64,000 bases of DNA from Tubiluchus corallicola (taxonomy: Eukaryota; Priapulida; Priapulimorpha; Priapulimorphida; Tubiluchidae). Below the pieces are notes generated by a model. It was not told the DNA's origin and searched no databases. It saw only the letters and a list, made by a program, of their open reading frames with translations. Location of the stretch: contig JAQGDQ010000629.1 in assembly GCA_030141605.1 (NCBI GenBank), forward strand, positions 59,773 to 123,772, written 5' to 3'. Below are positions 2,144 through 48,004 of this stretch, one piece after another (the first letter of the stretch is position 1; every line of letters begins with the position of its first letter). Made by a program: the position numbers and the translations under genes.

Positions 2144-3413
2144 TATAGGTTTTACACGTCAAATGTAGACACAGGAAAGTTCAAATGTGACTTAGGTAAG
2201 TCAAATGTGACTTAGGTAAGTCAAATGTAGACATAGGAATTTCGAAATGTGTTTTGGTAACTCAAATGTGACTTAGGTAAGTCAAATGTAGACATAGGAA
2301 TATCGAATGTGTTTTGGTAAGTCAAATGTAGACATAGGAATATCGAATGTGTTTTGGTAACTCCAATGTGACTTAGGTAAGTCAAATGTAGACATAGGAA
2401 TTTCGAATGTGTTTTGGTAACTCAAATGTGACTTAGGTAGGTCAAATGTAGACATAGGAATTTCGAATGTGTTTTGGTAACTCCAATGTGACTTAGGTAA
2501 GTCAAATGTAGACATAGGAATTTCGAATGTGTATTGGTAACTCAAATGTGACTTAGGTAAGTCAAATGTAGACATAGGAATATCGAATGTGTTTTGGTAA
2601 GTCAAATGTAGACATAGGAATTTCAAATGTGTTTTGGTAACTCAAATGTGACTTAGGTAAGTCAAATGTAGACATAGGAATTTCGAAATGTGTTTTGGTA
2701 ACTCAAATGTGACTTAGGTAAGTCAAATGTAGACATAGGAATATCGAATGTGTTTTGGTAAGTCAAATGTAGACATAGGAATTTCAAATGTGTTTTGGTA
2801 ACTCAAATGTGACTTAGGTAAGTCAAATGTAGACATAGGAATTTCGAAATGTGTTTTGGTAACTCAAATGTGACTTAGGTAAGTCAAATGTAGACATAGG
2901 AATTTCGAATGTGTTTTGGTAACTCCAATGTGACTTAGGTAAGTCAAATGTAGACATAGGAATTTCGAATGTGTTTTGGTAACTCAAATGTGACTTAGGT
3001 AAGTCAAACGTAGACAGAGGAATTTCGAATGTGTTTTGGTAACTCAAATGTGACTTAGGTAAGTCAAATGTAGACATAAGAATTTCGAATGTGTTTTGGT
3101 AACTCAAATGTGACTCAGGTAAGTCAAATGTAGATGCATTACTTTGAATAAATCGGTAATTAACTCATTTAAGTGCAAGTTACAAAAAGATAAACCTAAT
3201 TAAAATTAAATTTTATGGTTATGGTGCTATCGGCAGCATCAATTTTTCTCAATGTCTACATTTGATATACCAAAAATGCTTAAGATTTGTTGAAAACTAT
3301 TGTTAACACATTTGAACTACCCAAGTCTACATTTGAGTTACCAAGACACATTTGAATTACCTAAATCTACATTTGAGTTAACGTAGGTCTACATTTGACA
3401 TGTAAAACCTATA
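2144..3413. mobile_element. Foldback/MITE-like element with expanded 60-bp minisatellite
   Basis: The ends are inverted repeats: TATAGGTTTTACACGTCAAA at the left, and its near complement ending TGTAAAACCTATA-like at 3390..3413. Directly inside the left end, a ~60-bp unit (GTCAAATGTAGACATAGGAA, then TTCGAATGTGTTTTGGTAAC, then a TGACTTAGG stretch) is repeated about 15 times to 3130. The right arm (3290..3400) carries the same words in inverted orientation (CATTTGAACTACC, TCTACATTTGAGTTA). A second copy at 25243..25893 has the same ends and core but only about one unit. The flanks look like TA or TATA duplications. No transposase is encoded. Confidence 0.75.
2165..3130. repeat. 60-bp minisatellite array inside the foldback element
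   Basis: Tandem units of about 60 bp, each with the landmarks GTAGACATAGGAAT, GTGTTTTGGTAA and TGTGACTTAGGTAA. Some units lack the last third, giving a two-step higher-order pattern. Apparent reading frames on the minus strand (repeating STFDLPKSH) follow from the 60-base (multiple of three) period and are not considered genes. Confidence 0.9.
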
Positions 3414-8683: not shown

Positions 8684-9309
8684 ATGTGTCTCTAATAAAA
8701 ACATGACTCAAAAACCACGTTTACGGTCTAACTTTAACACTAAGCTACAATCAAGAAAATAACTTTCCTATCTTTCTTAAAACTATTCACATTAAATTAT
8801 AGCATGGTGGAAGCACCTATTCTGCACCATTAACCACAAGCAGAAAACAGCTGTAGAAACTGCTAGCGACTACTACGCAAGATTACAAGCAAGTACAAAT
8901 TATGAACAAACTTTAATGTACAATACGGCTATGACAATTACACGAGTCTAAACTCTTATAATTTCGTGTCACGTAGCGTGAATAATCATATAGCATCGTT
9001 TAGGTAAGCATAACGAACACTTATTTAATTAATTGCAGTAGCTAAACCAAGACACTATAAATAACGAATCACAAAGACTTTAGTTTACTTCGGCTTGTGT
9101 GGAAAACGAGTGAAATGTTACGATCTGTAGTTATTTGTCTCTTCTTATTATCACTAACGATCATTCCTCTGTCATGCCACGAATTTTTCCCAGCCTCCGT
9201 TGCTGAAAAAAGTAGAAACTTGATGTAGAGAAACAACGGTAAAGTCATCACTAGTGAAACTTTCACAATTACTGTAAACATCCATGATCATTGTAATTCA
9301 TTAAATTTA
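8684..9309. other. Intergenic, nothing recognised
   Basis: No gene, RNA or repeat that can be supported. Confidence 0.4.
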
Positions 9310-10875: not shown

Positions 10876-10881
10876 TTTATT
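10876..10881 (-). promoter_or_regulatory. Candidate polyadenylation signal for the PITP gene
   Basis: TTTATT on the plus strand, so AATAAA in the gene sense, about 330 bases past the last stop codon (11208). No AATAAA was seen between the three terminal exons, so all three isoforms may share this 3' end. This is inferred from position only. Confidence 0.4.
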
Positions 10882-11207
10882 ATGACTGCGTTGAGTAAAT
10901 ATATGAACGTATGAAAAAAAATTATAAAATTCCCGGCCGGGTGTGGGATAAAAAGTATTATCCAGGTAATTAGACGGAAACAGAAGTATTTTTATCGTCG
11001 GCCTTATGAATGTACAGTGAAGTAAAACATAGCAAGCCTTTTAGCTAACGAACCAGCACACAGATTATACGAAAATGCGTGACAACATTATGACGCTGAT
11101 GATAAATGATAAATGATGTGACGTTTGAGTGATGCAGTATCATGCTAAAGAAAATTAAAGGAACAACAACATAATCGTGCACATATAGAGCAAAAACATT
11201 ACAAAGA

Positions 11208-11288
11208 TTATTCGCCGTCGCTTTCGCTGGAGGCCTCGCTTGATGACATCATCAACAGATGCCCCTTAAGAGAACCCCTGAGTCGTTG
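11208..11288 (-). CDS. PITP alternative terminal exon, distal copy (tail 26 residues)
   Basis: Acceptor CTCTTTGTTGCAG. Encodes [14 protein letters not shown], then [12 protein letters not shown] and TAA. The acidic, serine-rich end is unlike the other two copies and has several S-x-x-E/D casein-kinase-2-like sites. The upstream intron flank is nearly identical to that of the middle copy, while the coding 3' half has diverged. Confidence 0.85.
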   Translation of the reverse strand, partial: QRLRGSLKGHLLMMSSSEASSESDGE

Positions 11289-14200
11289 CTGCAACAAAGA
11301 GTTGCGAGTACGGTCAGCAAACAAGAAAAGCATTGTTTAAGAAAGAAATCAAAACAAGTGAACATGTCAAGCATGCACCTATATAGAGACTAGGCATTAC
11401 ACAGACTATGTGTCTTGGCCGACAGCGGCTTCACGCGACGGAGACGCGGACATTGAGGCCATCATCAGCATCCCTCTGAGAGAACCCCTGAGTCGTTGCT
11501 GCAACAAAGAGTTGCAAGTACGGTCAGCAAACAAGAAAAGCATTGTTAAGGAAAGAAATCAAAACAAGTGAACATGTCAAGCATGCACCTATATAGAGAC
11601 TAGACATTACACAGACTATGGGTCTTGGCCGACAGCGGCTTCGACACGCGAAGGAGACGCGGAGATTGCGGTCATCATCAGCATCCCTCTGACAGAACCT
11701 CTACGTCGTTGCTGCAACAAAGTTGCGCTTGTGGTCAGTATGCAACAAATGCAATAACATTCATGTGCACTAGCAGGTTTCTACACTAATAAAAAGCAAC
11801 ATGCACTATCTTCAAAAAAACCACTACTACTGTTCTAACATTCTATAAGCATGCAGGACATAACATTGTAATGGATTGGTCTCACCTGATATGTACAATG
11901 AAGGGAAATGTATGTTTTGTAGCAAAAATACAATCTAACTACCATTGCGATTCTTGATACGAAAGCTGCTGGGTTACGACGTACTTGCCAGGCAAGTTAA
12001 ACAATACTATGCCTGTTTAATTAAAGGATGCATGACTGTAGGGAAAATTGTTTTTGTGAGTGGCCATTTTCATACAGCCTCGGGCAATTATCTCGCTGCA
12101 AGAGATGTTTAACTTCCGAAAGAGGATAAGACACCTTTGGTTCCATGCCTCATCTCGGAGAATTATCCCTGGTAATGAGCAATGTTCTGGTCCTACCACA
12201 GTCGGGCCCTGCAACTGTAGTCAGTGCCGAATCCAAATCTGCTGAGTGCCAGCAATGCAAAACAGTAAACAACAAAGATTTTACACAGGTGCCCAAAAGT
12301 ATTCAGGTAGTAATTAGTAATTACAATTACTTACCTCGTCTAATTCGTGTTTAACCCGTTCTTCCAAATCACGTATATCATCCATGGTTAGACCGTGCCA
12401 GTTGTCCATCCAGCAGAAAACTTGACGATGAAAGTTGCCGAACAGTCTAGGATAACACTGGAAAAATCACGGAAAGAGTAAAACGAGAGCTAGCACCACC
12501 AATCGGCAGTCAGAAAGTCGTAAGTTCAATTCCCACAGTAAGATGTTTGTGTTTTTTCTTTTATTTTGCGGTGATTATAACACTTTCGACGAACAGTGGC
12601 TTAAAGGACAAGAAAATGGCAAACCAAAATAAGCCTCAGAACATTTGCAAATAAAAAATTATATCACCTAGGTATAATCTTAAGACTTAAGCGAATAAAG
12701 TACTCGCAGTAAACGTTGGCACAGACATGTTTCATTTAGACTGCTAATTGAAAAGCCAGTATGTGACTGATCACGTGACATGACGTCACTCGAACACAGT
12801 CGCAGTGAGTTCTGAGCACGTGCACTACAAAGATTTGTGTTGTGGTTCTGTGACGCCATCTCATATGGCGCCGCTGTGACAGTCTCGCGGGAGTATTTAG
12901 AATGAAAACAAACAGGAAATTCTTTAATGTGAGTATGATAAACGCTTAAGATTGCCTCTAACCATTATAAATCTTCTGAGACTTGCTTTAACTAGGCCTT
13001 TTCTTGTCCTTTAAAACCTATAACAATACTTTTCGTTGCTTTTCATTATTAGTACTATCATTCCAATTTCCCAAACTTTGATAAGATCGCTGAATTTCAT
13101 TCTACGTTGTTCATAAAGTACGAAAATGTTCTGGCATAGTGCCTGCCATACTTGGGTCTTTTTTATTAATACTAAATATAAAGGTGTTTAAGCATCAAAG
13201 TCACCATCGAGGTGAGATTTGGCACACGAGCATCAGCAGCGGCTTTCAGTCTCGTGATAAATCTAGCGCAGAAGTCTTAGTATCCGGATACGCTCTCGGT
13301 CTTACATGAGACCTGGACACCCCTGACAGGGATGTGAATGAGAAATTGCAAAGAACTCTGAAGCAGGCAGGGGGGGTCACCTAGCCCCCCAATGGGGTTG
13401 AGGGGAAAGCCCCCTTGGAGCCAGCAACAAACTGCAATTTTGTGACCATAGAGAGCCTCTAAGTAGAGTTAAAATATCAATTACCTTGTTTCATGCATAA
13501 TTTAAAATACCCAACTATCAAGGATACATGATACCTAATTGTCTCAAAAATGCCTAAGTACTGGCCGCTCCTATGCAAAAGTATATAAAAACTGTCTGCA
13601 ATTGACTCAAATAACTCCGCACAATTGATTCTATATTATTATACATAGTGATGTACACGTGGTTACACTGATGTACTGATGTAAACAAAGTGACGGCCTG
13701 CCACCTAGCGGCCAGCTTGTGAAATAAAAATTTTCTCAACGAATTTACGCGATTTACAAAAATGTCACTACTGGTCTTCCAAAAACTTGGAATTCCGCGT
13801 ATTCGCGGAAAATTCTCAACCCTGCACTAATTCTATTCCCTGTGATGGCACAAGTCATGACTAGGCACACGAGCATTAATATCGATGCCTCATCTCTGTC
13901 TTATATTAGACATAGTGGCATAGTTAATGGGGGAGTGGCAAGGGGAGCAATTCTCAAAATTTGGCGCCCTTTCGACAACCTGCCTTATTACTTCATTGCA
14001 GCCTCCCTGTTTTTTAGTTTTTTTTAGTTTTTCGTTTATTATTATCACATGCAGTACAATATAATGGCATTAAGCACACAGTGACATCAAAATTATCACG
14101 TCATACTGTAATAAATTATTATATTTCATACACTATCGTTATCATAAAAGAATAATTGTACTGCGGTGGGCTAGAGAAGCAAAGACTTGTATAAGCCCAC

Positions 14201-17200
14201 TGTCACGTGAACCCGATAAAAAAAGAATGGATGAGTGAACAAAAATAAAGAACTGGGAGAAAGATTAGATCATACAGGAAGGATAGAAGGATGTGTTAGT
14301 GGAAATGGTAGGAAGAAAAGATTGTTCCAAGGATCAAATTGCCCCAAATATTATTATTCTAATATATTCTTGTCACACACTGATACTACTGGAATAGACA
14401 AACATATAATTGCTTCACGTGTCACGGTGCCATTTTATGTGCTTGCTCCCCCCTAACTTTAGAACTTGGCTACGCCCTGCTTAGATATGCCGCCTAACTC
14501 TTAGCAATGGTAATGGTGGCATAATTAAAGCACAAGAGAACCCTTCATAAACATAGCTTAAAAAATTCGATTTGAGATTTTATATCACTTACAAACTGCC
14601 TTTTTGCGTGCAGGACTTCAATCGGCAGTCACGCTGTGTAAAACATGTAAATTTAAACTCCCGCGATGACCGTTAGACACAGCCATTTTCACGACAGGTC
14701 ATTTGAAACAAGTTTAGGTAACATTTTGTAAAGTTTGAAAAAATAATCAGAGCATTCGTAGTGCACAAGTCACTAATAAATAAAATTTAATATTACTGCA
14801 TCTTGTCAGTAAGATTAAAAATATGTTTTTAGTTACTGATAGGTGCACCCTGCAGGGTGAGCCAGGAACATTTTACCAATTGGTGAAAACATTTTAAATA
14901 ATTAATAATTTTCTTTTCTAGTTACATAAGTCTTTTTAGCAGGTAAGCGAAAATTTAAGTAATATAGATTTGCACGGAAAATCATTTGAGACATAATTTA
15001 ACATTGCTTTTTCTTCCCCTGATTTACGTTTGGTACATGACGTCATGTAATGGCGACTTTGGAACAGTATTGCGGGAGGTTTAAAATGAGAACAAACTAA
15101 ATTTCCTTTCAGTGCGAGTAAGATATACACATAAAATGCTGTAAAGTAATATAATTTTTTAAGGCGATTTTTTTAAAACCTACTTCAGGTACCCCTTTTC
15201 TTGTCCTTTAAGCAAAGTATTGGTCAACCTTTACTCATAAGTACATAGGTTAATACTGTAATGGCAAGGTCTAAGTTTCATATTGAGATCTTGAATGCAC
15301 CTCTACGCAAAGGCATGTCTCAAAAGCGAAACCATGACAACAGTTACAGCTTCTCACATTTCTGTGCATTGCAAACCAGACATTTGTAATGGAGCATCGC
15401 TCATCAACAAAGATAATCCTCTAAGATGAGCCAGTGAACCAGCAGAGGAGTCACGTTCCACTGCACGTACAACCTTCCTCAACGAGGTACTAATGATACC
15501 GCCTGATGTAAGTTGGTATTGAACCAAGGTTGCCACATACCATTGGCGAGAAAGCACACGAGTGCTTATCCACTCAACCATGAACTGTTTAAATTTATGA
15601 TACTAAAACAATCACAACACATTGCACAATGCTAGTAATATATTCTAACTAATCACAATGCAAAGTTCCCACAGAATCTTAAAATAAATTTCCCGGACTT
15701 TTCCCTGCTCTATCAAATATTGATTTTCCATGACCAGGATAAGCAGAAATTGCATTACCACTATACATATTCAAACATTTTTGTCTATGGACATTCATAC
15801 ACCTACTGATATATAACGTGTCGGCACAGTTGCAGTAGTGCTAAGGAAATTACACTAATCACATTAAATCAACTTACTTTTTTAATCCAATCATTATTTT
15901 TAGAACAGAAATTGAAACTGGGAGCCTGCCTAAGTAAAATTTCATTTGAACACGAATCTCTGAAAAATATGTTTGGAAAAATATCAGTCCACGGTGATTA
16001 TTTTTTCAACCCTTTCCAATTTCCCCGACTATTTCGCCTCATTTCCATCATTTTCCCTGACTTTTGAAATTATCTTTTCCCTTGACTTTTCCATGACTTT
16101 TCAGGATAGCCTGTATTTTTCCCCGACCGTGGGAACCCTGCACAGGTATGTTACAAAACACTTACACTTTGTATAAAATTCTCCACTCGGTTCTGCAACC
16201 CCCACCATTTAAAATGTACAGTAACTAGTTTATAGCAGCACATCACAGGATTCATACCGTCCCACCATTTTGGTCCTAGTAACGGACCACGGCCGGTCTT
16301 TTTTGATTTAAATTTCTTGGGATCCTCACTAGCCTTGTAATCCTGAAATAATAAAAGTTGATGAAACTTTAATTATCGTGCGGCAGCAGAATTGAAATGA
16401 CCAACTGTTCTCTTGTCCTAATATGGGCACTGTGTATGAAACTGTACAGTGTCGTTATGGCTGAGCGAAAAAAATTGGTATCGCAGCATTGCGTTTAATC
16501 ACAGTACATACTAAGGCTGTAACGATACACCTAAGTCCCGATATGATAATAATAATATGACAATAATCTTTATTTAAATTCGGTTTTCTGGAACAACAAT
16601 TAACATAAGCTCAGAAGAGCTTTTGGGCCGACAGTAAACAACAACATAAAACTACATAACAGACACTATTGGTTGGCATCCTTCTGTCTCGGAAGACAAT
16701 GTAGTGTGTGCCAAGAGCGTCAGTTATTGATTACATTGATGGAGCTGCAGCATCGACTGGGGCTGAGCAATCGGATCCTTGAACCTCTGGAGTGGCCTCT
16801 CAAGGGCGTACGCCTGGGCAAGGTGTATGGAAATCCTGAGTTGCCCAGACAACAGCAACACCCTCTCTTTCTCCCTGGTGTAGTCCAAAGGAAGGCAGAG
16901 CGATACATTTGGCACCAGGTTGGCTGCAGGAGTCAGTGATCATGCTGCACTGATCCGCCTTTGGGATTCCGCCACTCCTGATTTGGAAGGTTTACTCCTC
17001 TACACATGGCCTTTGGGTACTTGACCTCCTTTGCCCTCTAGCCATTGGCTGCTTGTGCAACTCCTCCGCCTAGTATCGAGATACAGTGTGGGCATCCCGC
17101 AAGTCTACAGCACCTGGTATTCCTAGGTGGTCACCCATCCAAGTACTAACCAGGCCCCACATTGCATAACTTCAGTGATCAGACGAGAAGCGGTGTTTTC

Positions 17201-20200
17201 AACGTGATTTGGCCATAGTCACAGAGACTATTATTACCCCACTTTTACCCTAAATACCACTCGCCAGGCAGAGCAACAGCAGGTACCATTTTTAAAGTCT
17301 TTGGTATGACCTGGCCACTGTATCAAACTCCCGACCTCCCAGACAGAAAGTGAATGCGTTCAGACGGACCAAACCGTCGATATGATGCATATCACAATAC
17401 TAATAGCACGATATGATACGTATCATGATACACATTGAGTTAACGTTTGAAGGCTTTAATAAAAAAAACAAGGTAAGTTGTTGCTTAATCTAATATATAT
17501 TTATATATGTATATATTAGACTTATGAAACTATCTTAAGATTGCTAAGTGCTAAAACAATTCAGCAAACTGTTTGATTTCTGTTTATACTCTTGTATTAT
17601 TATTATTATTGTAAGCTACCGTGTGTGCAAAACATTTCAATGCTGTTGATTTAAAATATGCTGGTGCATTTTATACTCCATATTTACTGCAAGCCATTTC
17701 AGAAACTTACAAGCAAAAATATAATTTGCTACAACATATATGCACATTTGTGTTTTCAATGGCTTCAGCAGCAGGTGTCTATGTCAAGGTCAAGTCTCTC
17801 CTCTGCTCCTCTCCTTGTGCTCACTGCACTGATTATGACCACGGAGTTCAACTGTGTTGTTTTCACTCTGTGGAGTTAAACTACAGGACATTCTACACCT
17901 GTAGCTTGAATTATTTCTCACAGTTTTTATCAGCTGGCAGTCAAGCATCTCCTAAATATCAATGATTCAGATTATCGTGATACTGGTTCACTTTGACGAA
18001 TCGTCACGGAAGATACCACGATGCATCGATGCAGGCCTAGCACATACACTATTTATCGCATTTCATATTTTTTCTGCACGGACTCAGTGCTTATGCAACT
18101 GCTTTCACAATCGACAAAACTCACAGTAACCCACAACTAATCCTACTTACTTAACTGTTACCTACTTAGCATTTACATCGCAATACCGCAAAGATACCAA
18201 AACGACGGAGTGATATACAATATCCAGCCCTAATTTTCATTGCCTCACTAACAGCTACATACAGCCACCAAGCTTCTAGAATGCATTCTTGTTTATTAAC
18301 CAAATCTTGAGAGAGAGATTCTCTGTTTATTCGGCGCAAATTTCACCAAGGGTGTCAGTTTTGATAAATTTTTACTAAAATCTGTATACTTGCAAACAAG
18401 CAAATGTCTTTAACATAATATCAACAAGAAGCTATAGTTTGTCTTTATACAAACTACAAACATTCCTACAAAGTGCAGATCGGCTTACAAGTATTGTGGA
18501 AAATTCTTTCCGCCCGCAAACCACCACGAAAAGAGGTAACCATGTTTATAAAACGGCTGTGTTACCAAAACTGAAACCGAAACAGAAATTTCTGAAACAT
18601 GGGAAACCGAACCGAAGCCGAACGGAAACTATTTTTGCAAAAACCAACTATTGTCAAATTTGAAAAAAATCTGAACTAAATAAAATACTTTGTTTTTGCT
18701 TGTTTGCTTTTATTTGCTTGATAAAGTAGCTAGGCAAAAAATCCTAACCAAAAAAGTAGAACGATGTTTATGGTTAAAGATCGTGATGCTTTAAAAAATT
18801 GACAAATTTTATTTTGTGAATATTTTGTTGGCTATATTTCATAAATTATCAAATTAAACTTGGTCTTATTCAAATTATACTTTGGTATTTCGGTTGATTG
18901 TGCCTGGAGACCTTAAAGCTTCACAGTAGTGAGTATTGAAGATATGCCGCATTGCCGTAAAGAGCATGTTACAAATGGTACAAAAAGTTAAATAAACGAT
19001 ACTTACGCTCTATTTGAACTATTTTATTGCAATTGTAATACTTAATGTAGTAAAATTAGCCAAAATTTTTAGACGATTTTTAACATCTAAAAGAAAAATA
19101 GGTAAGCTGGATAAATACTATTAAAGCCTTGGAAAAATGCTACCGAAAATTACCGAAAGTTTTGGCTACGAAACTTAATAATTTTCGACAAAAATGAAAC
19201 TGAACCGAAAGTGTAATTATTGGCAAACCGAAACGAAATTTTCCGAAAGTTTTGGCTACGAAACTTAATAATTTTCGACAAAAATGAAACTGAACCGAAA
19301 GTGCAATTAATGACAAACCGAATGGAATTTTCATTTCTGTAACATCCCTGTAATAAAACTGCATGGTCCTTGCAAGAAAAGTATATGTGAAGTATATTTA
19401 AACAGAAAAAAAGTTTTGATACCTTTGGTAGAACGGGGTCATTGGCTATGTCCATTATGAGTACTTGTCGCTTCCGTAGCTTATCTGCGGGTAACATGTG
19501 TGCCTGCCAAAACACAAGAACGTGCAAAGTTGAAAAACACTGATCAATGTTAATTAAAGCACTAAGATACAGTATACCAAATTTTAATCAAAACATGGGG
19601 TTCTATAAAAGTGAAATTTGCAATAATTACTTAAGGTAGTTGTTTGCAGAAACAGAACCATAACTCCAGCGCATTGTGTTCACTTGACACAGCAAACATC
19701 AAAACGGCCACATAATCAAATAATCTGCTGTGCTGCGTAGCACATAAATTACCCAACAAGCAAGTCTGGAATCTTCATGCTCTTTCATGTAACTCGGTCG
19801 TCAGGGCAACTCAAACTTAGAAATGTGAAGTGAAGTACGGTAAGTCCTAGCTTAATGGTTCCAGGAAAACGCGACGTTAAGTGAAGCGTCGTTAAACGAA
19901 ACCAAAACTTCCATAGAAGGTAATGTAAAAGAATTGAGATACGTTCCAAATAGAAAAGTCAACACTGCTTAAATCAGATAAGTTAAACATTCTATGAGTT
20001 TTATTCATATTTCTACTGATTAATGTCTTCCTGTTTGCCTAAAACCACCTATATATTTTACTTATTGATACCTAGCCATAGCAGTTTCTCTTTCGTTGAT
20101 GTTTAAGCCAGGGATGAGAATGACATATTGCAAAAAACTCTGAAACAGGCCGGGGGAGCCAGCAACAAATTGCAATTTTGTGACCATAGAGAGCCTCTAA

Positions 20201-26200: not shown

Positions 26201-29200
26201 ACTCAAAACTTATTATTAGTGAGGGAATAAAGTGAGCGGAAACGAATTTGGCCATGAATTTAAACAAAATCACATTCAGTTAATGTGGGTGAACACTGGC
26301 CATCAGACAAACTGCTTTTGGGGCAATTTCAGCTGCCATACTACTCCTGGATTCAAGGAGGAACAATGTACACATTTAATAACAAGACTAACACCTATGC
26401 AGTTGAGGGTCTTGTCACTAATTTTTATAACCAACTTCATTCCAGTCACTCAACAACTATGAATATTGCTACAGAACTCTGCTTTAGTACCACTGAGTCT
26501 GAGGCGTACTAACCAACAGGCTAACTAGCCTATAGCCTGAGGCGTCAAAGTTTGAGAGGCATCACATTTTAGGAAAAATTCTTATTCTCCTTGGAAAATG
26601 TGTATACTTTCATATTCATGTAAAAGGTGCATTTTATAACACACCACAGGCAGTTACTGAAAGCAGCTTTTATATAAGTGCCACATAATGAACAGGTGCA
26701 AGGTATTACACAACAAGCAGTTGCGCAGCCTGCTTGGATATAAGCGCTGTGCAAATACATGTAATTAATAATGACCTCGTAGAAACTAGCTTAACAGTGT
26801 TTCTAATACACTACAAGTAATTGTTTAATCTGCTCATTACATAAACAATCATAAATTTGCAATAGTGAGGGGCGGGCTGAAATGTCAGCCTAGGGCGTCA
26901 TAAAGTCTTGATACGCCCTTGCACTGAATATATGGTGTGCCAAAATGGAGATCAAAAATATACAGGCCAGATGGAAGATTGAGTGGACTTTCAGGCTTCA
27001 AAGTAAGAGCTAGTATGCTTTGACATCCTACTTGGTGAAGAAGGTTTGACTTTTCCAACTGTACGGCACCTAAACAGGTACCAAAAGTTGGAGGCTGTGT
27101 GAGTGCTGTTTTTTATATGGTTATGGCTGAAATCAAAGAATAAATAATATAAGCACGGAATAAGCAGGGACTAAGCACTAAGCACAAACAACCAGGGAAC
27201 AAGTACAAAAAGTAGGACCTTACACCGGTCCTATTTTCCCTAATATAAAAAACCTGAAAATTTTAAAAACAATAAAATATACATATGACCTGTTTATACC
27301 TTACGTATACCATAAGTATACCATACGTCCCTTTATGACCGAAAGTCCCTTATATCAGGGTACCTTATATACGAAGATTTTTATAAGGAAAAACGTTACG
27401 GAATTTTCGGACCGGTGTTGGTGATCTGTTATAAGCGAATATCTTATACCCGTGGTTGACTGTATGTGTGTGTGTGTGCGTGCGGGCGTGTATGTGTGTG
27501 TGTGTGTCTGTGTGTGTGCGTGTTACAGATCACAAATTATTGCAATAATATTGATTTTAGCTTAAAAGCTACCTAAGAAACAAAAACAGATCATTGCTTT
27601 GCGTGAAACCTCATTTGCTCCTCATTTTTATTCTGGAGGAGCATACAGTGCAGTGCTCCGCAAAAAAAGAAAACATTTCCACCCCTGACCACAGCAGAAA
27701 CCAGACAATTTTTCATGTTTGAACAGGTATACAACCATCAAGTCAATTTCCACCCCTGACCACAGCAGAAACCAGACAATTTTCCATGTTTGAACAGGTA
27801 TACAACCATCAAGTCAATTTCCACCCCTGACCACAGCAGAAACCAGACAATTTTCCATGTTTGAACAGGTATATCACCATCAGGTCAATTTCCACCCCTG
27901 ACCACAGCAGAAACCAGACAATTTTCCATGTTTGAACAGGTATATCACCATCAGGTCAATTTCCGCCCCTGACCACAGCAGAAACCAGACAATTTTCCAT
28001 GTTTGAACAGGTATATCACCATCAGGTCAATTTCCGCCCCTGACCACAGCAGAAACCAGACAATTTTCCATGTTTGAACAGGTATACCACCGTCAAGTCA
28101 ATTTCCACCCCTGACCACAGCAGAAACCAGACAATTTTCCATGTTTGAACAGGTATATCACCATCAGGTCAATTTCCACCCCTGACCACAGCAGAAAGCA
28201 GGCAATTTTCCATGTTTGAACAGGTATACCACCATCAAATCAACTTCCTTTAGAAATCACATCCCAACCTGCAGCACTAAATTAGTTAATCTACAAAACA
28301 GCATGCTGCCTCCAACGAAAGCACAAGGATTTGCAGATTTTGTTAAAGTGACCGTCAAACTTGAACTCGGATCAATACAAGGGAGACGGTAAACAGAGCG
28401 CAAGATTCTTTAGAAACGTAACAGTTTCCATTAATTTGGTAAATATTGGAAATGAACAGCAAAACCCATATGAACAAAATTGTTCTTTAAAAGCACACGA
28501 AACCATCCTTTATAAATGAAGCTTAAAAAGTTCGCATTGAAATTTTATATCACTTACATGCTATCTCATTGCATACAGGACTTGTATTAGCAGTACTAGT
28601 TAGCACTGTAAAAAAACTTGTAAATTCTCCTGTGATGACCGTTAGGTGCAGCGGTTTTAACGGTAAGTCATTTGAGACAAGTTCAGATAACATTGGAAGT
28701 TTGAAATAACAAAGAGAGCATTCGTAGAACACTCTTGGCTGACCAAGCAACAGCTTAAATCACTTTATATTGTCAATAAGATTAATAATATGTTTTTGGT
28801 GAATCAGTGCCAGTGCACACTGGGATGGAGATGCGGTGCCGTTTTACCAGGTAGAGTGAACATTTTAAATAACTAAGAAGAAGCTTTCAAACAGGCAAGC
28901 ATAAAACTAACTAATACAACTTTGCATGTAATGCCTTTGGGATATACTTTTTTAACATTCCCCTTTATTAATCGTTCATAACACATCAAAAATAAAATGT
29001 CGATAAATCACAAAATTGTTTGGTTTCATCACAGCCTATCAATTTTGCTGTTTAACGAAACCGATCGATCGCAAATCTGGCAGAATAAGTACGTATTGCC
29101 GCTATAAAAATTATTTTTAAACTGTGTTGCTTTGGCAGTTGTTTTACACATCAAAAGATATTATCCATAAGACTTCAATGACGAAAATTCATTTATCTGC

Positions 29201-31739
29201 AATTATTTGATTGATTTCCTGGAATTTATTATAAATTTTATCACTGAAGTAAAAGAAAAAGCAAATGTATCAATGGAATTTGTGGCACTTGTCTACTCAT
29301 TTTCACAAATGCTGAAAAACTCCCTGAGACACGTTGAGCAACAGCCACTGAGCAACGTTGGAGCAGACATGGTTGAGCAACAGGCACTGAGCAACGTTGG
29401 AGCAGACATGGTTGAGCAACAGACAGTGAGCAACATTGGAGCAGACACGGTTGAGACGTGTTAAACAGCAATAAACCGATGATAATGCCTAAAAGAAAGT
29501 AAAGCCAGAACGAAAATCTATGATCATTACATCTAATCCATGGATGTTCTATTCTAGATAGATGGCTACAGTCTAATCAGCTTTCACCAATACAATTACA
29601 AGGACTGACAAGAATATGTGCAAGGCCTTCTAAAAATTATATGCGATTAAAATTGACAAAGTTACAGGATGGGATTTTATAAGAAAACAGCTATTGTTAA
29701 TTGCAAACCATACTGCAAACCAACAAGGTGAAAATGACCAAGACCACGCATTATGGTGTGAAATAAGTAGAAAAGAAAAAAACTTCAATGATCAAAACAG
29801 CAGCAGCACGACTGAAATGCTTAATCGGTTTGGCCACTCCTTTTGAGCGTGTGATCTCTTGGAAAAGCAAGTGTATGAAATATAAATTTGAGACATTTAT
29901 GAGAAATTTGAAGCACATAAATGAATTTATCGTAACAGAATGCTAAACATTTCAAAACTTCTGCTCTAAGTTTTACATGTTTTGCTTTTGTAAACATTTT
30001 CTTAGAAATTCAGCAATTTTTGCGGCTGTTTATTAATTACCGATCATTACCGAACACAACTGTTCGATCACCGATGACTGATCAGTTCGGCAGGTCACTA
30101 GAACTAAATAATACATTAGAAAGTTTATAAGAAACCAAATAATTATAGATAAATGAGTAAAAAAACATGCTCCGAACACATCCAGTTTGCAATGTCCACA
30201 TTGTACAGCCAACATTAGGGGTGCACCAAATATTCAGATCGTCAAACTTTTTATGGAATATCGGTACAAAAATCCCGTCCAACAATCTTCCGTTGCAATC
30301 ACTAAAGATTCGGTGAACCTTCAGTATACCGAAATTACTCTTTTAATAATTGTCACATTAGGTAAGAATTACATCAAAACGAACCGAACAGTTTCCTACA
30401 ATGCTTAGAAAAATTTATACAAAATTTAGCAAAAATATTGAGCTACTTTAAAGGACAAGAAAAGGGGCACCTGATGTAGGTTTCAGAAAAATCGCTGTGT
30501 AAAACGTTCCATGCAAATCTATATTACTTAGCATTTCACTTACCTGCTGGAAAGACTTATGTAACTAGACCAATAATTTAAAATGTTTGTGCCAATTGGT
30601 AAAACGTGTCTGACTCACCCTCCAGGGTGCGCCACTCACTAACCAAAAATGTATTTTTAATTTTATTGACAAGATACAGTAATTTAAAATTTTACTTAAT
30701 TAGCAACATGTATGCTACGAATGCTCTGATTACTTTTTCGAACTTTACGCAATGTTATCAAAACTTGTTTCAAACGACCTACTATTAAAATGGCTGAGCC
30801 TAACGGTCATCGCGGGAGTTTAAAATTTACACGTTTTATACAGTGTTGCTGCCGACGCAAGCCCTGCATACGAAAAGGCAATATGTAAGTGGTATAAAAT
30901 TTCGAGACAAATTTTTTAAGCTTTATGTAAGTGGAAGGTTTTCTTGTGCTTTGTCAATAATATTACAGAAGTTTAGAGATCATATCGTCATAAATGAGAA
31001 ATCAAAAGATTACCCAAAGGTTAGCTTGATGAATAAATCTTGCACGCAGTACTGTTTTGTATCCAAGTTACCTGTTTTTATGTGTGATATTGTTCTACAA
31101 TTGTGCTCCTGTAATCAGTCGCTATGAATGAAGTACATTAGCTCAAACACACCATTGTAACAAACAGCACCAAGTGAAAAACTAGGTAAGAAAGCCAAAA
31201 CTGATATAGGATGCGAATTGGTCGAAGGACTGAACTAGAAATTGAGCAAACTGCTGGATTCTATTATTAAAAGCTAAAGTTAAGTATGTTCCTTGTGTCT
31301 TACACACACAGAGATTCTCATTTGCACATATCTAACTAAATCCAGTGGACATAATGGAAATAACGAAACAACAACATACAAAATTATCTTACGTTTATCT
31401 ACAAAACTTGAAAGTAAATGCAATACATTACTGCAATAATTGATTAACGATTATTGGAAATACTACTTATTCCGAACCCGAATTCGATCGACCCACAAAA
31501 GCAGTAATTATCATTATAGGCACTAACATAAAATAAATCTGAAATTGCAAGGTCAGATAACTAACCGCATACAAAAAACTTGGCGTTTTGTTGTTACAGC
31601 CTGATTAGTTTCAATAGAAAACATGAATTAATGGGAGAGCAATGCGTGCGTGCTCTACAAAAATTAAATGATTTCAATCCTGAAAATCGCAGTACACTCA
31701 ATTTGTTTAACAACAAACTTACTATTCTTTTATAAGCAT
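11208..31739 (-). CDS. Class I phosphatidylinositol transfer protein (PITP alpha/beta type), complete, with three alternative last exons
   Basis: PITPs of this family move phosphatidylinositol and phosphatidylcholine between membranes and supply PI to lipid kinases. Joined exons 31739-31723, 26168-26138, 24050-23887, 22970-22871, 21257-21180, 19503-19423, 16342-16166 and 12457-12335, plus one of three last exons, keep frame at every junction and give 283, 287 or 288 residues (vertebrate proteins are about 270). The protein starts [16 protein letters not shown]. Family hallmarks are [12 protein letters not shown] (27-38), QYTHKIYH (61-68; T63 and K65 match the inositol-contacting Thr59/Lys61), NAYPYC (94-99; C99 matches Cys95), [10 protein letters not shown] (168-177; S170 matches Ser166), FKWWGLQ (201-207; the membrane-inserting WW) and FHRQVFCW (225-232). 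All junctions are GT-AG. The introns hold many MITEs and SINEs. The gene could be orthologous to the single ancestral PITPNA/PITPNB. Isoform use is inferred, not shown. Confidence 0.95.
11406..11498 (-). CDS. PITP alternative terminal exon, middle copy (tail 30 residues)
   Basis: Acceptor CTCTTTGTTGCAG. Encodes [13 protein letters not shown], then [17 protein letters not shown] and TAG. The exon and its flanks are strongly similar to the proximal copy (period ~213) and the distal copy (period 210), so it arose by local tandem duplication. Confidence 0.85.
   Translation of the reverse strand, partial: QRLRGSLRGMLMMASMSASPSREAAVGQDT
11616..11711 (-). CDS. PITP alternative terminal exon, proximal copy (tail 31 residues)
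   Basis: Acceptor ACTTTGTTGCAG directly before CAACGACGTAGAGG. Encodes [13 protein letters not shown], then [18 protein letters not shown] and TAG. The R-R-G-S-V-R-G core matches the family's usual pre-terminal segment. It differs from the middle copy by substitutions and one in-frame 3-base insertion (the V in SRVEAA), as expected if the frame is maintained. Confidence 0.85.
   Translation of the reverse strand, partial: QRRRGSVRGMLMMTAISASPSRVEAAVGQDP
12335..12457 (-). CDS. PITP exon 8, last constant exon
   Basis: Acceptor TTTTTCCAG, donor GTAAGT. Encodes residues 217-257, [20 protein letters not shown] then [21 protein letters not shown]. The LTMDDIR..E helix is the gate of the lipid pocket. 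The donor leaves phase 0, matching all three downstream terminal exons. Confidence 0.95.
12605..13010. mobile_element. TTAA-flanked MITE (AGGACAAGAAAA family)
   Basis: Inverted ends AGGACAAGAAAATGGC and, reversed, AGGACAAGAAAAGGCC, flanked on both sides by TTAA (12601..12604, 13011..13014). At 406 bp it is the cleanest member of a family found repeatedly in this window. TTAA targets are typical of piggyBac-type transposition, but no transposase is present to prove it. It lies in intron 7 of the PITP gene. Confidence 0.75.
13327..13824. mobile_element. hAT-like MITE (CAGGGATGWGAATGA ends)
   Basis: Starts CAGGGATGTGAATGAGAAAT and ends AATTCTCAACCCTG, inverted to CAGGGTTGAGAATT. The internal segment at about 13430..13530 and the last ~90 bases match the element at 20109..20722. 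No clear 8-base target duplication remains. Confidence 0.65.
13913..14479. mobile_element. Longer relative of the CAGTGGC hAT-like MITE
   Basis: The left edge reads AGTGGCATAGTTAATGGGGG and then GGCAAGGGGAGCA. The right edge reads GCTTGCTCCCCCCTAACTTT, then AACTTGGCTACGCCCTG. Both ends correspond to those of the 188-bp element at 7068..7255. The boundaries are approximate. Confidence 0.5.
14529..15207 (-). mobile_element. TTAA-flanked MITE, long form
   Basis: Flanked by TTAA (14525..14528 and 15208..15211). Ends AGCACAAGAGAACCC and, on the other side, CCCCTTTTCTTGTCCT. Internally it shares CGCGATGACCGTTAGACACA-type and TTTTACCAATTGGTGAAA words with copies at 22102, 28491, 30452 and 51971. 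Reversed relative to those at 22102 and 30452. Confidence 0.7.
15661..16140. mobile_element. hAT-like MITE (CAGGGTTCCC ends)
   Basis: The right end GTGGGAACCCTG is the inverted form of CAGGGTTCCCAC; the left end is degraded (CAAAGTTCCCAC). Shared with the 48005..48430 copy in opposite orientation: GCAGAAATTGCATTACC, TATGGACATTCATACA-type and TTTTCCCTGACTTTT words. It lies just downstream of PITP exon 7 in the gene sense. Confidence 0.65.
16166..16342 (-). CDS. PITP exon 7
   Basis: Acceptor TTATTTCAG, donor GTAAGT. Encodes residues 158-216: [20 protein letters not shown] with the regulatory-loop serine S170, then a stretch a few residues shorter than in vertebrates ([13 protein letters not shown]), then [21 protein letters not shown]203-W204 is the membrane-inserting pair. 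Phase 0 on both sides. Confidence 0.95.
16671..17220 (-). mobile_element. 5S rRNA-derived SINE inserted in the tRNA-SINE
   Basis: The first 120 bases in the minus sense (17220..17101) align end to end with 5S rRNA. They contain GAAAACACCGCTTCTCGTCT, GGGGCCTGGTTAGTACTTGG, ATGGGTGACCACC and AATACCAGGTGCTGTAGACTT-like words. About 430 bases of non-5S body follow, ending GAAGGATGCCAACC. The 12-base flanks ACAGACACTATT (16659..16670) and ACAGAGACTATT (17221..17232) are a target duplication with one mismatch. It is a SINE3-type element by structure. The 88-codon frame in its body is not a gene. Confidence 0.8.
17101..17220 (-). pseudogene. 5S rRNA-like head of the SINE
   Basis: Exactly 120 bases and colinear with 5S rRNA. 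The 3' half (GGATGGGTGACCACC, the C-box region) is well kept; the A-box region is more substituted (GAAGTTATGCAATGTGGGGC). It is the promoter-bearing head of the retroposon, not a functional rRNA gene. Confidence 0.8.
18554..19350. mobile_element. hAT-like MITE (CAGGGATGTTACCGAAACG family)
   Basis: The left end CGGCTGTGTTACCAAAACTG and the right end TTTCTGTAACATCCCTG are inverted. The 8-base flanks TTATAAAA (18546..18553) and TAATAAAA (19351..19358) differ at one base. The interior shares GAAGATATGCCGCATTGCCG with copies at 20.4, 38.9 and 57.9 kb. Near the right end a ~105-base segment (GAAAGTTTTGGCTACGAAAC) is tandemly doubled. Confidence 0.7.
19423..19503 (-). CDS. PITP exon 6
   Basis: Acceptor GTTTTGGCAG, donor GTATCA (a weaker donor than the others). 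Encodes residues 131-157, [20 protein letters not shown] then NDPVLPK; the IDIA strand is typical of the family. Phase 0 on both sides. Confidence 0.9.
19838..21143. mobile_element. Tigger-like MITE (CAGTAAGTCC ends), interrupted
   Basis: The left end CGGTAAGTCCTAGCTTAATG and the right end, reversed CAGTAACTCTTCCCTTAACG, are inverted and flanked by TA. It matches the compact 256-bp copy at 50234..50489 (in opposite orientation) through AACGAAACCAAAACTTCCAT and AAAAGAATTGAGATACGTTC. The interior holds the hAT-like insert 20109..20722 and extra sequence absent from the compact copy. Confidence 0.7.
20109..20722. mobile_element. hAT-like MITE with perfect 8-bp target duplication
   Basis: Starts CAGGGATGAGAATGACATAT and ends AGTTCTCACCCCTG. 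The flanks GTTTAAGC (20101..20108 and 20723..20730) are identical. Its two ends match the 13327..13824 element, but the centre (about 20280..20600) matches the interior of the different family at 18554..19350, including GAAGATATGCCGCATTGCCG. It therefore looks like a chimera. Confidence 0.8.
21180..21257 (-). CDS. PITP exon 5
   Basis: Acceptor TTTTTTTCAG, donor GTGAGT. Encodes residues 105-130, [20 protein letters not shown] then TGNQEN, matching the conserved EYMKEDF...IET..PD.GTQEN segment. Phase 0 on both sides. Confidence 0.93.
22102..22824 (+). mobile_element. TTAA-flanked MITE, long form
   Basis: TTAA at 22098..22101 and 22825..22828. Starts AGGACAAGTAAAGAGGTACC, ends GATTTTCTTGTGGT. 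Contains TTCACCAATTGGTAAAATGT, CTCCAGGGTGCACCACTCAC and GTTACTGCCGACGCAAGGCC. It lies in PITP intron 4, ending ~45 bases from the 3' edge of exon 4. Confidence 0.72.
22871..22970 (-). CDS. PITP exon 4
   Basis: Acceptor TGATTTCAG, donor GTAAGT. Completes N71 and encodes 72-104, [13 protein letters not shown] then [19 protein letters not shown]94 and C99 correspond to the conserved Asn90 and Cys95 of the vertebrate lipid pocket. Confidence 0.95.
23887..24050 (-). CDS. PITP exon 3
   Basis: Acceptor TTTTTTCTAG, donor GTGAGT. Encodes residues 17-70 plus two bases of N71: [20 protein letters not shown], then the glycine-rich turn, then [10 protein letters not shown] with the inositol-contacting Thr and Lys. 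A minisatellite begins only ~28 bases upstream of the acceptor. Confidence 0.95.
24078..24355. repeat. 12/24-bp minisatellite beside PITP exon 3
   Basis: About 23 tandem 12-base units of the type GCGAGAAAACGCAGGCAAGG with A/C-rich variants. In the gene sense the array is T- and C-rich (GTTTTCTCGCGTGCGTTTCC) and ends about 28 bases upstream of the exon 3 acceptor. The Cys/Phe-rich and Arg/Lys-rich frames here are repeat artefacts. Confidence 0.9.
24690..25068. repeat. Dispersed repeat, shared with 37.9 kb
   Basis: ACAAGACAGATCACTAAATA and GAGGCATAAAACCCAATAAA, then GCCTTTAAAATGG, recur at about 37960..38013. Two ~50-base blocks with CATTGTCAGACACAATGGAC-type sequence occur at 24797..24832 and 25012..25047. 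Its identity is not recognised; it may be an old retroelement tail. Confidence 0.45.
25243..25893. mobile_element. Foldback/MITE-like element, unexpanded copy
   Basis: Same ends and core as 2144..3413: TATAGGTTTTACACATCAAA at the left, CTACATTTGACATGTAAAAT then CTATA at the right, and the shared core GGTAATTAACTCATTTAAGT. It has only one copy of the unit that forms the long array in the other element. Confidence 0.75.
25900..26125 (-). mobile_element. Probable retrotransposon remnant
   Basis: In the minus sense it reads [20 protein letters not shown] then [10 protein letters not shown], resembling the L-x-x-L-E-x-R-R-x-x-x-D/G-L-x-x-x-Y-K-I segment near the C-terminus of many animal non-LTR reverse transcriptases. 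The following part, DFVMQNVVC, recurs at about 38020..38120 on the plus strand as DFIMQNIIC. It is short and interrupted, so the call is tentative. It lies just beyond the donor of PITP exon 2. Confidence 0.4.
26138..26168 (-). CDS. PITP exon 2 (31-base micro-exon)
   Basis: Acceptor TTTATTTCAG and donor GTATGT. It completes Y6 and encodes [10 protein letters not shown] (7-16), the first beta strand of the lipid-binding fold. Length 31 follows the two-base overhang of exon 1, so the next exon begins in frame. Confidence 0.92.
26518..26925. mobile_element. Possible hAT-like MITE
   Basis: AGCCTATAGCCTGAGGCGTC near the left and GTCAGCCTAGGGCGTCATAA near the right are inverted/related words, and the right end reversed reads CAAGGGCGTATCAAGAC, a common hAT-like terminal style. 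The boundaries are uncertain. Confidence 0.35.
27464..27523. repeat. (TG)n microsatellite
   Basis: About 60 bases of TG dinucleotides with CG and GG interruptions. The ~110 bases before it (ATAAGCGAATATCTTATACC, CGGACCGGTGTTGGTGATCT) resemble a Tigger-like terminus, but no matching partner end was found. Confidence 0.85.
27675..28240. repeat. 71-bp minisatellite
   Basis: Eight tandem units of 71 bases with little divergence, each containing TTTCCACCCCTGACCACAGC, AGAAACCAGACAATTTTCCA and GTTTGAACAGGTATA. Variation is mostly ATACAACCATCAAG versus ATATCACCATCAGG. It lies within PITP intron 1. Confidence 0.95.
28491..28950 (-). mobile_element. TTAA-family MITE, truncated copy
   Basis: TTAA at 28487..28490, then AAGCACACGAAACCATCC and internal CTGTGATGACCGTTAGGTGC. 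It is the same family as 14529..15207 in the same orientation. The far end (CTTGTCCT) is missing, so the copy is truncated or eroded. Confidence 0.55.
29330..29455. repeat. 39-bp tandem repeat (three units)
   Basis: GTTGAGCAACAGCCACTGAG, then CAACGTTGGAGCAGACATG, repeated three times. Because 39 is a multiple of three, an open frame (29207..29464) reads [12 protein letters not shown] three times. That frame has no ATG at its start and no recognised family, so it is not called as a gene. Confidence 0.85.
30452..30951 (+). mobile_element. TTAA-family MITE
   Basis: TTAA at 30448..30451, then AGGACAAGAAAAGGGGCACC, CCAATTGGTAAAACGTGTCT, CTCCAGGGTGCGCCACTCAC and an end near TTTTCTTGTGCTTT. It lies in PITP intron 1, upstream of exon 2 in the gene sense. 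Confidence 0.65.
31723..31739 (-). CDS. PITP exon 1 (coding part): start codon to Y6
   Basis: Encodes MLIKE plus two bases of the Y6 codon, then the donor GTAAGT. The start has A at -3 (AACATGC), and the peptide matches the near-invariant N-terminus of class I PITPs, so the ATG choice is firm. The 5' untranslated region and promoter were not resolved. Confidence 0.9.
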
Positions 31740-45151: not shown

Positions 45152-47363
45152 GTAAGCATTGTTGTCTTTGGAGATATCGTTGCCATGACCATTACCGTAT
45201 TTGTTGTGGTTATTGTCGTCATCATAAATGTTTGGTTGAAGAAGTTTTGTGTTCCTTGCTTTCAAATAGCCACATATTTTAGCATCTATGATTTAATTTT
45301 TTTATTTTTATTATTCATTTTGCACCTTTAAGAGCACATAGCAATATAACAAATGTAAACAGCTAAATTTATAAAAGGAAGGGAAGGATATAGGAAAGAG
45401 AAGATGAGTGCCAGAAAATATCAGTTGATTCATTAGATTATAACTCTGACTGCCAGAATATCGTTTATTTCACAACAATTTTTACCCATTGCGTGTAATG
45501 AGTTGAAGAAAGGAGATGCTGAATAGTTGTGAACCAGTCAGGCTTGAACCTGAAACTCTGGGATTAGATCTCTCATGCTCTGCCATCTGTTGCCATTTCC
45601 GATAAGGCCCGAGATTTCATACATGTTGCGTCCGCCATCCGACAGCACCACCTTTACCCATATCACAGTAGAGGGATGCTTATGACATTCAAATTCAAAA
45701 TTCAATTTTTTTTCAAATTCAAAAAATATTTTATTGATTTAACATACATCATAATCACATTAGTTTTGAAATACAATATATAATCAGAAAAGTAGAAAAA
45801 ATAACTTTACTTGTTTTTTAATTAGCTGGCAATTTACGATATCATTAATTAGATTTTGATTAGGAATGCCAGACTGTCGGTTGACCTAATGGTTTTTTCG
45901 CAACCATTTTTATGAATTACTTCAGATTAACAAGTGATGTTTTTCTTGTAGGCGATGGTCAACCCAGGCGCAAGTACTCAATCGCTGGACTGTACGATCA
46001 CAACCTTCCAATTCGAAAACTCAGTGGTAACTCTGATTATGGACCTCGACGAAAACTCAGCACAGTCGATCACAACAACCTTCTGCGCTTGTCGCCTAGA
46101 AGAGTCAGTGCTGTCCAACGGACTTCCCTTATTGGTTCGATTGAAGAATCGCCCTTGTCATCCCCCAAAACGTCGGTATGCTCCAACTCTAGAAAAATCA
46201 GCTTGAGAATGGACAGCAAGATCAGCATTCCCACGAAAGACAGCGGAACTGTTGACTTACATCTGGACTTGGGTGACATCATGCTACCTTTAGGGAAGCG
46301 TGGCCGCAGTGCCTCCTGTTATGGCGCATACCTTCCTCACGCAATAAGCATCAATGGTGATGTCATAAAAGTCCACCAGAGGGAGCCAGAGGTGAAAAAC
46401 AAGTTGCATGGCTCCTTTTCACAGCAGGTGAAGCATTTGAAGAACTTGCTGGTTCTGGCTGCTTCCTTTGCGTGCACATTTACGGGATTCCATGCGTTGC
46501 GTTGCCACCACAGTAGCTTGACCGACTGCGGTGTCACCTCTTTGGCAACATTCTACGCTTCCATGGCTATCGGTGGCTTCTTCAGTTCTGTGATAACGAC
46601 AAAGTTGAAACCCAAGTGGACGATTGTCATCAGTTTTATATTCTACAGTTGTTACTTTTCAGCCAATCTGCATCCGACTGCGTATACAATGATGCCCACA
46701 TCGGTTCTGTCGGGGTTAATGTCCGGTCCCTTGTGGAACGCCCAAACTCTGTACCTGTACTCCACTTCTCGCAAGTACGCGTTCCTGACCGAAGAGGCAC
46801 CGGAACGAATTCTGAATCGGTTCAACCGAATATTCAGTTCAATCTTTCACAGCAGTTTGGTAATCGGTAACCTCATATCATTCTTGGTGTACTCCCAAAG
46901 TGTGAAAATTCTTCTTCCAAGTGCATTTGAACTGACCTCAAGTGATAATCAGGCTGCAAATCTAACTTCTCCATTGCAGCAAACTGATGACAGTCGTATT
47001 AAAGATGTTGGCAGTGGTCATGGTATTAATCTCTCATGTGGCGCATATCCATGTACATTCTCTGAAACGACGCCACCTGTGGAAAACATGGATTATATTC
47101 TAGCCAATGAAAATCACCCTTTGAACAGTGGTATTGTTATTGTCAGCGTATTCATTGGTTGTGGTCTATTGGGTATTGCTCTGAGCACAGCTATGTTGGA
47201 TCGGTTGGAACCGAACATACGGGAACCGCCCAGACAAAGGAATTTAGTGAGGTTATTGATTCGAATGAGCAAGACAATACACGATGGACGAGTGTTGTGT
47301 TTGTCAGTACTCATGTTTTTTACTGGAGTCGAACAAGGATTTTTGTTTGCGGATTTTACTAAG
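45025..47363 (+). CDS. UNC93-family membrane protein, 5' part (first 513 residues), 3' incomplete
   Basis: UNC93 proteins are multi-pass major-facilitator-like membrane proteins; relatives act in potassium-channel regulation in worms and in Toll-like receptor trafficking in vertebrates. Exons 45025..45151 and 45952..47363 join in phase 1 (G43 split), and the second ends in a phase 0 donor. A polar N-terminus (1-206) precedes membrane segments near 207-226 (NLLVLAASFACTFTGFHALR), 240-258, 265-281, 287-309 (with GPLWNAQ, a family motif), 334-357, 435-457 and 488-509. The TM5-TM6 loop has N-x-S/T sites at N379 and N402, so it is probably luminal or extracellular. It ends ...GVEQGFLFADFTK, where the family continues for ~200 more residues. 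The subfamily is unresolved. The start is chosen from an upstream in-frame stop and AAAGCCATG context. Confidence 0.9.
45152..45951 (+). other. Intron 1 of the UNC93-like gene
   Basis: 800 bases, GT-AG, phase 1. No repeat or gene recognised inside. Confidence 0.8.
45952..47363 (+). CDS. UNC93-like coding exon 2
   Basis: Acceptor TTTTTCTTGTAG, donor AAG|GTAAGA. Encodes residues 43 (last two bases) to 513 in a 1412-base uninterrupted exon. It has the rest of the R-[K/R]-x-S array (S52, S67, S79, S95, S126) and seven membrane segments. The large exon suggests partial intron loss compared with multi-exon relatives. Confidence 0.93.
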
Positions 47364-48004
47364 GTAAGACTACTGAGCTTGAGCATGTGGTATCATTGCA
47401 AAACCTGTTATGTACTATAAAGGACACACATGTAGGAAAGTTGAATTATCATTGCAGTGACACATGTGTGTGTGGATGCGAGGCCCATATATGTTTTAAC
47501 GGCCTCTGAATGCAAAAGAACCGAGTTCGAGTCTCAGTTGTGACATATAATTTTTCAGGATTTCTAATTTCTTTTGCCTAAAGGCAAATTATTTTCCTCT
47601 TTTTTGCTGCATATTGTTTCGATTTTTTTCTATTTTTTCTTGATCGTGGTCATCTTGTTACTTCATTTTGAAGAGCCGAGAATCGTTCATGTTTTTGAAA
47701 AGCATTTGTTAGTAACAATTGGTTGATTCATTCTGATGCGAACTAACTATTATAATTGTGTTGGCTCATTGACCCTCAATGCACTCAAGATGTAACAGGT
47801 ACAACAGGCCTATCATATAGAACAACTGTCCCACAGTAGACCTACGTTTGACCCTAAGCACCCGGAAACGTAGACTTGAATTGAATTTATTGATTAACAG
47901 GGACAAAGCATATTAATAATAAAACATCACATACAAAGTTGTAAAGAGTTAGTCAAAATTAAAAAAAACAATATCGGTAATGAAGAGCCTAAATGGTCAC
48001 ATAC
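47364..48004 (+). other. Start of UNC93-like intron 2
   Basis: Begins GTAAGACTACT. No downstream exon encoding the expected SY.TC.LG..-type continuation was recognised anywhere to 64000. Confidence 0.5.

Follow-up and report, generated by a model that had tools for sequence, protein, structure and literature searches.

A tripled candidate alternative terminal exon in a class I PITP gene of Tubiluchus corallicola

Results

The window analyzed here, a 64-kb stretch of Tubiluchus corallicola DNA, carries on its minus strand a class I PITP gene that comprises nine coding exons and runs from 31739 to 9161 (Table 1). A tblastn search with an approximate mammalian PITP-alpha query found five exons with E values no higher than 3e-5, whereas the E value for exon 2 was 3.7. 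Exon 1 is the single candidate obtained when the sequence upstream of exon 2 was searched by pattern; it is in phase with exon 2 and yields the protein start of the database relative P0001 (MLIKEY). The joined exons 2 to 8 are open throughout, and the nine exons have GT donors and AG acceptors. When a 282-residue query was compared with domain families, PF02121 matched residues 1 to 246 with 372 bits, bearing out the PITP identity proposed in a sequence-only reading of this DNA. Solved relatives among the matches listed numbered five, four of them PITP alpha and one PITP beta. The canonical form, which ends with the exon 9 tail, has 270 residues, and 257/270 are identical to those of P0001, the best database relative. 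P0001 is probably transcript-derived, because its contig has 1134 bases. Among the 120 listed of 2407 matches, the named relative with the highest identity is that of Priapulus caudatus (217/270). By its sequence, the gene belongs to the class I PITPs of the alpha/beta type, with a single PITP domain spanning nearly the whole protein of ~270 residues; PI/PC binding and transfer are properties predicted from this class membership.

Several other features of the gene and its surroundings were noticed. Arthropod PITP isoforms from Dendroctonus (P0005/P0013) and Macrobrachium (P0007/P0009) vary in the block that corresponds to exon 5 (NPGYMK...EN), and P0004 of Frankliniella seemingly contains two versions of this block in a row; the arthropod variation probably reflects a separate duplicated internal exon. 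One exon 5 was seen in the Tubiluchus gene, and scanning the minus strand of the window by motif revealed no second copy of it. Intron 6 of the PITP gene harbors a full-length 5S rRNA match (17102-17220, minus strand; RF00001, 88.7 bits), which may be a short interspersed element derived from 5S rRNA or else a dispersed copy of the 5S gene. Elsewhere, a 502-codon open frame on the plus strand (45912-47420) resembles an UNC-93-like membrane protein, as judged by eye from its translation.

Table 1. Coordinates of the PITP coding exons, the three-copy array, and associated elements in the 64-kb window
Feature	Position	Strand	Remarks
Coding exon 1	31722..31739	(-)	MLIKE plus two bases of a Tyr codon, ~17 bases, then GTAAGT
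Coding exons 2-4	26168-26138, 24050-23887, 22970-22871	(-)	Reading around tblastn matches
Coding exons 5-7	21257-21180, 19503-19423, 16342-16166	(-)	Reading around tblastn matches
Exon 8	12335..12457	(-)	Donor GAG/GTAAGT (bar after GAG); ends at 12335 in phase 0
Candidate docking stretch	11997..12018	(-)	22 bases of intron 8; inverted pair with 11319-11340
Copy A	11616..11711	(-)	31 codons, stop TAG
Spacer A-B	11499..11615	(-)	CTGAC branch-point-like motif ~26 bases before the B acceptor; without donor-like site
Copy B (middle)	11406..11498	(-)	30 codons, stop TAG; 5' end resembling C, 3' end resembling A
Spacer B-C	11289..11405	(-)	Differs from spacer A-B at 4/120 bases (stop codon to acceptor)
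Copy C	11208..11288	(-)	26 codons, stop TAA aligned with the A and B stops
AATAAA candidate poly(A) signal	10876..10881	(-)	First after the array; common to the three copies
Conserved last coding exon 9	9161..9202	(-)	QRRLGKIRGMTEE, TGA stop included

Downstream of exon 8 lie three related exon copies in tandem, here designated A, B, and C in the order of transcription. Their starts are spaced 210 and 213 bases apart, and each copy is preceded by TTGTTGCAG, continues the phase of exon 8 with an open frame, and has its own stop, in agreement with the three copies of period ~210 described in the sequence-only reading. The 3-base in-frame indel that it reported between the middle and proximal copies was also confirmed, as one 3-base gap between A and B. 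The core RxRGS[VL][RK]G, which LMM had been said to follow directly, is indeed present in 3/3 copies with LMM next in all of them, save that C has one extra residue; the end of C differs strongly from those of A and B. Homology, an acceptor, a shared phase, and an open frame are found together in all three neighboring copies, and a CTGAC motif is located ~24-26 bases upstream of the exon start in 3/3. The GC content is 0.59, 0.60, and 0.55 in the coding stretches of A, B, and C versus 0.38 in the spacers. We also observed that these stretches (11619-11711, 11409-11498, and 11211-11288; GC 0.55-0.60) lie above PITP exons 7, 8, and 9 in GC content (0.42, 0.44, and 0.50). The pyrimidine tract of the A acceptor is poor, scoring 0.53, compared with 0.68 for B and C, 0.74 for exon 9, and 0.63-0.79 for the seven internal exons. 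With an approximate scoring matrix, no donor-like site scoring above 0 was detected between 11715 and 11190; therefore, the copies would be acceptors of one terminal exon and not separate exons with their own donors. In addition to the AATAAA hexamer of Table 1, a GATAAA is present at 10996, and AGTAAA and ATTAAA lie downstream of exon 9.

The array had been taken for the last coding exon of the gene, supplying three possible tails. When positions 26000 to 1 of the minus strand were scanned for peptides that are linked to an acceptor and score 5/7 on QR..G.[VIL][RK]G[MT], tail peptides were found at four places, namely, the three array copies and 9202-9161, some 2 kb past the array. No further tail copies were detected in this range. 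The peptide at the fourth place, QRRLGKIRGMTEE, is equal to the P0001 tail at 13/13 residues, and a good pyrimidine tract precedes it. As judged by this conservation, exon 9 is the ordinary last exon, and the array sits between exon 8 and exon 9, so that neither the position nor the number of tails claimed earlier can be upheld. Since exon 9 is conserved, lies elsewhere, and was found in one copy, the array would represent an added alternative terminal exon.

The array tails were then compared with those of 119 relatives, aligned from the best 120 listed of 2407, with P0002 left out. The number of residues after RG is 3-8 in 117/119 relatives versus 17-22 in the array tails. At the serine position, 79 of these 119 relatives have Glu, 10 have Thr, and 4 have Ser, and exon 9 has Lys. 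In a basic setting (RxRGS), all three array tails carry a serine at the position of PITP-beta Ser262. A comparable motif, RKKGSVRG, is present in PITP-beta structure 2a1l, and its serine is taken to be Ser262 from its position. No array-tail protein was found among 2 and 783 protein database candidates at E values up to 10, a database in which 90% clusters can hide isoforms and from which the species itself seems absent, as the best match to the gene is 95%.

The copies record part of their own history. Over the first 20 exon bases, B is identical to C and differs from A at 4 positions, and it follows A afterwards; copy B thus looks like a chimera of the kind that would arise if A and C had crossed over unequally within the exon. 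Tandem repetition is common in this DNA. After TRF rows were merged by hand, the 64 kb contained 12 tandem arrays with a period of 50 or more, the PITP array included, and upon random placement of the arrays, at least one touched one of the nine PITP exons in 12549/20000 trials. Because tandem arrays are frequent in the window, multiplication of the copies needs no selective reason. The unmerged TRF output had 77 rows, overlapping rows counted, with arrays at 27675-28248, 61334-62555, 2158-3134, and other places.

We also compared copy A with exon 9. In the core, a ten-codon stretch picked after it had been seen, 7/10 residues are the same and 15/30 bases differ. Among the shared residues that have codon choice (Q, R, R, G, R, and G), 5/6 use another codon, and Q keeps CAA. 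Random placement of the 15 differences kept at least 7 residues in 3/200000 runs, or in 7/200000 runs in the reverse direction. The likeness is lower for B (6/10 residues, 172/200000 runs) and for C (4/9 residues, 6117/200000 runs). By these counts, copy A resembles exon 9 more than chance would predict. The comparison was also simulated under an equal-clock model, in which exon 9 was constrained and the array either neutral or constrained, at seven times. Residue identity and codon changes were reproduced together in at most 530/40000 runs at any time with a neutral array and in up to 20639/40000 with a constrained one; a stricter version that added the 15 base differences was matched in at most 1/20000 neutral and at most 11/20000 constrained runs and separates the models less. 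As 7/10 residues have been kept despite differing codons, old protein-level constraint is indicated for the A core versus exon 9, and the proximal core has probably been protein-coding for long.

Among the copies themselves, no sign of constraint was seen, either in the A versus C core or in A versus B past the crossover. The A and C cores keep 6 residues over nine codons with 7 differences, a result reached by 47410/200000 random placements, and are no better conserved than such placements. Past the crossover, A and B differ by the gap and by 5/70 substitutions, of which 4 are nonsynonymous and 1 is synonymous, versus 4/120 in the spacer (Fisher p 0.29). Coding constraint had been claimed from the frame kept by the three copies, and these comparisons leave that argument weak. 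When C was aligned freely with A or B, several tail gaps were not multiples of three, and their totals (12 and 15 bases) are.

Intron 8 contains a 22-base stretch that could pair with the bases immediately preceding the CTGAC motif in copy C (20/22) or copy B (18/22). For the local pairing before C, 6/300 shuffles reach the pair count and 3/300 the weighted score, the length of 22 having been taken from the pair itself. The pairing before B is ordinary, being reached by 60/300 shuffles by count and by 62/300 by weighted score. When duplex energies were computed for whole spacers, 190/300 and 218/300 shuffles were at least as strong, and 293/300 before copy A. The intron 8 stretch is thus a possible docking site, a lead only.

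Discussion

On balance, we lean toward the view that the array, situated after exon 8 and before exon 9, is a proximal alternative terminal exon of old kinship with exon 9 that is now tripled, with the splice choice between the two inferred. Exon 9 would then serve as the distal terminal exon, and the array would offer three tandem acceptors of one proximal terminal exon. Splicing of exon 8 to exon 9 would give the ordinary 270-residue protein with its short tail, and splicing to an array acceptor would give a protein of 283-288 residues with a longer end and a serine at the PITP-beta Ser262 position. Transcripts with an array tail would end after the AATAAA at 10881, and any copies farther downstream of the acceptor chosen would fall in the 3' UTR. 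In this way, four C-termini could be attached to one body, one from exon 9 and three from the array. The tail behind the lid helix would be expected to change in a regulated manner, in phosphorylation or membrane residence, and the lipid-binding body would be left unchanged. The tail choice proposed in the sequence-only reading remains plausible, with the correction that it would involve four tails, drawn from array acceptors and a distal exon, and not three exons with donors of their own.

The array may instead have been used as an alternative terminal exon in the past and now be unused and drifting, its copies being an ordinary repeat expansion, which we regard as unlikely but well worth weighing. 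Such drift would fit a window with 12 tandem arrays whose period is at least 50, where overlap with a PITP exon by chance is likely (12549/20000). It would also fit the A-B changes, whose 4:1 ratio of nonsynonymous to synonymous substitutions, with the indel, is no slower than the spacer, as well as the A-C core (47410/200000), the gaps in the freely aligned C tail that are not each multiples of three, and an exon 9 acceptor better than that of copy A. On the other hand, 3/3 copies are open and possess an acceptor, a branch-like motif, and an aligned stop, and C is widely diverged yet open. The possibility that one copy is an assembly artefact, with two haplotypes placed side by side, appears very remote to us. 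Marine invertebrates can be very polymorphic, which would allow for it, and a 183-base stretch does recur at 93% one unit on. However, a joint inside the exon of chimeric B suits a crossover better than two alleles, and C is clearly distinct.

It is conceivable that all three array exons are used and separately regulated, each tail having its own role. This is a special case of the proximal terminal exon favored above, with its likelihood included there, and we rate it as decidedly improbable. The acceptor and open frame of each copy, the end of C so unlike those of A and B, and the intron 8 stretch that pairs before C (20/22) or B (18/22), as would a docking site for which selectors compete, all speak in its favor. 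Against it, the acceptor regions of B and C are nearly the same, as are the tails of A and B, no constraint was found between A and B, whole-spacer duplex energies are no better than those of shuffles, and the B pairing is ordinary (60/300). Somewhat less doubtful, although still unlikely, is that the gene has an independent serine/serine-less switch like the one of PITP-beta sp1 and sp2, in which the serine exon was then tripled to give four C-termini, perhaps with intron 8 docking that competes before B and C.

The closest parallel to the favored proximal terminal exon is found in PITP-beta itself. According to PMC8266687, the vertebrate sp1 and sp2 variants differ in that 16 other residues take the place of the last 15, Ser262 of mammalian PITP-beta is constitutively phosphorylated in sp1 and missing from sp2, and the need for Ser262 in Golgi localisation is disputed, with conflicting findings. 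What distinguishes the PITP-beta tail variants invoked in the sequence-only reading is the presence or absence of Ser262, and it is the array (Ser) versus exon 9 (Lys), a contrast that had escaped that reading, that matches this difference. Both systems are class I PITPs with alternative C-terminal ends, putative in the Tubiluchus gene, of which one has a serine and the other lacks it. By the serine position in a basic setting, the array tails would be sp1-like, and their phosphorylation is putative. Unlike in PITP-beta, the serine tail here is encoded by a relative of the ordinary exon, present in three tandem copies. If used, the array would provide a natural comparison for the unsettled role of the PITP-beta alternative tails and of Ser262 phosphorylation. 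It also looks like a terminal-exon cluster captured following unequal crossing-over within a coding exon, a stage at which one can trace what becomes of a new copy.

Among the titles listed by literature searches, none concerns this PITP tail-exon array, and the term PITP does not occur in the main text of PMC9741552, a study of tandem duplicated exons. In that study, 77/236 human events exchange one C-terminus for another, and a set of three tandem 3' exons is described for each of TPM1, lev-11, and Tm1, apparently without common origin. Like the PITP array, these tropomyosin genes thus possess three tandem related 3' exons for alternative C-termini; the gene and the tail are different, and alternative use is reported there, whereas it is inferred for the PITP array (PMC9741552). 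Tandemly repeated terminal exons or 3' regions are likewise described for Drosophila pip and PGRP-LC in PMC9013439, where they are used in a mutually exclusive way and competing RNA pairing is reported; the pairing scores of the PITP array are mixed. Taken together, tandem terminal exons are already known, and the PITP array adds a case in a family whose alternative tails are known from vertebrates.
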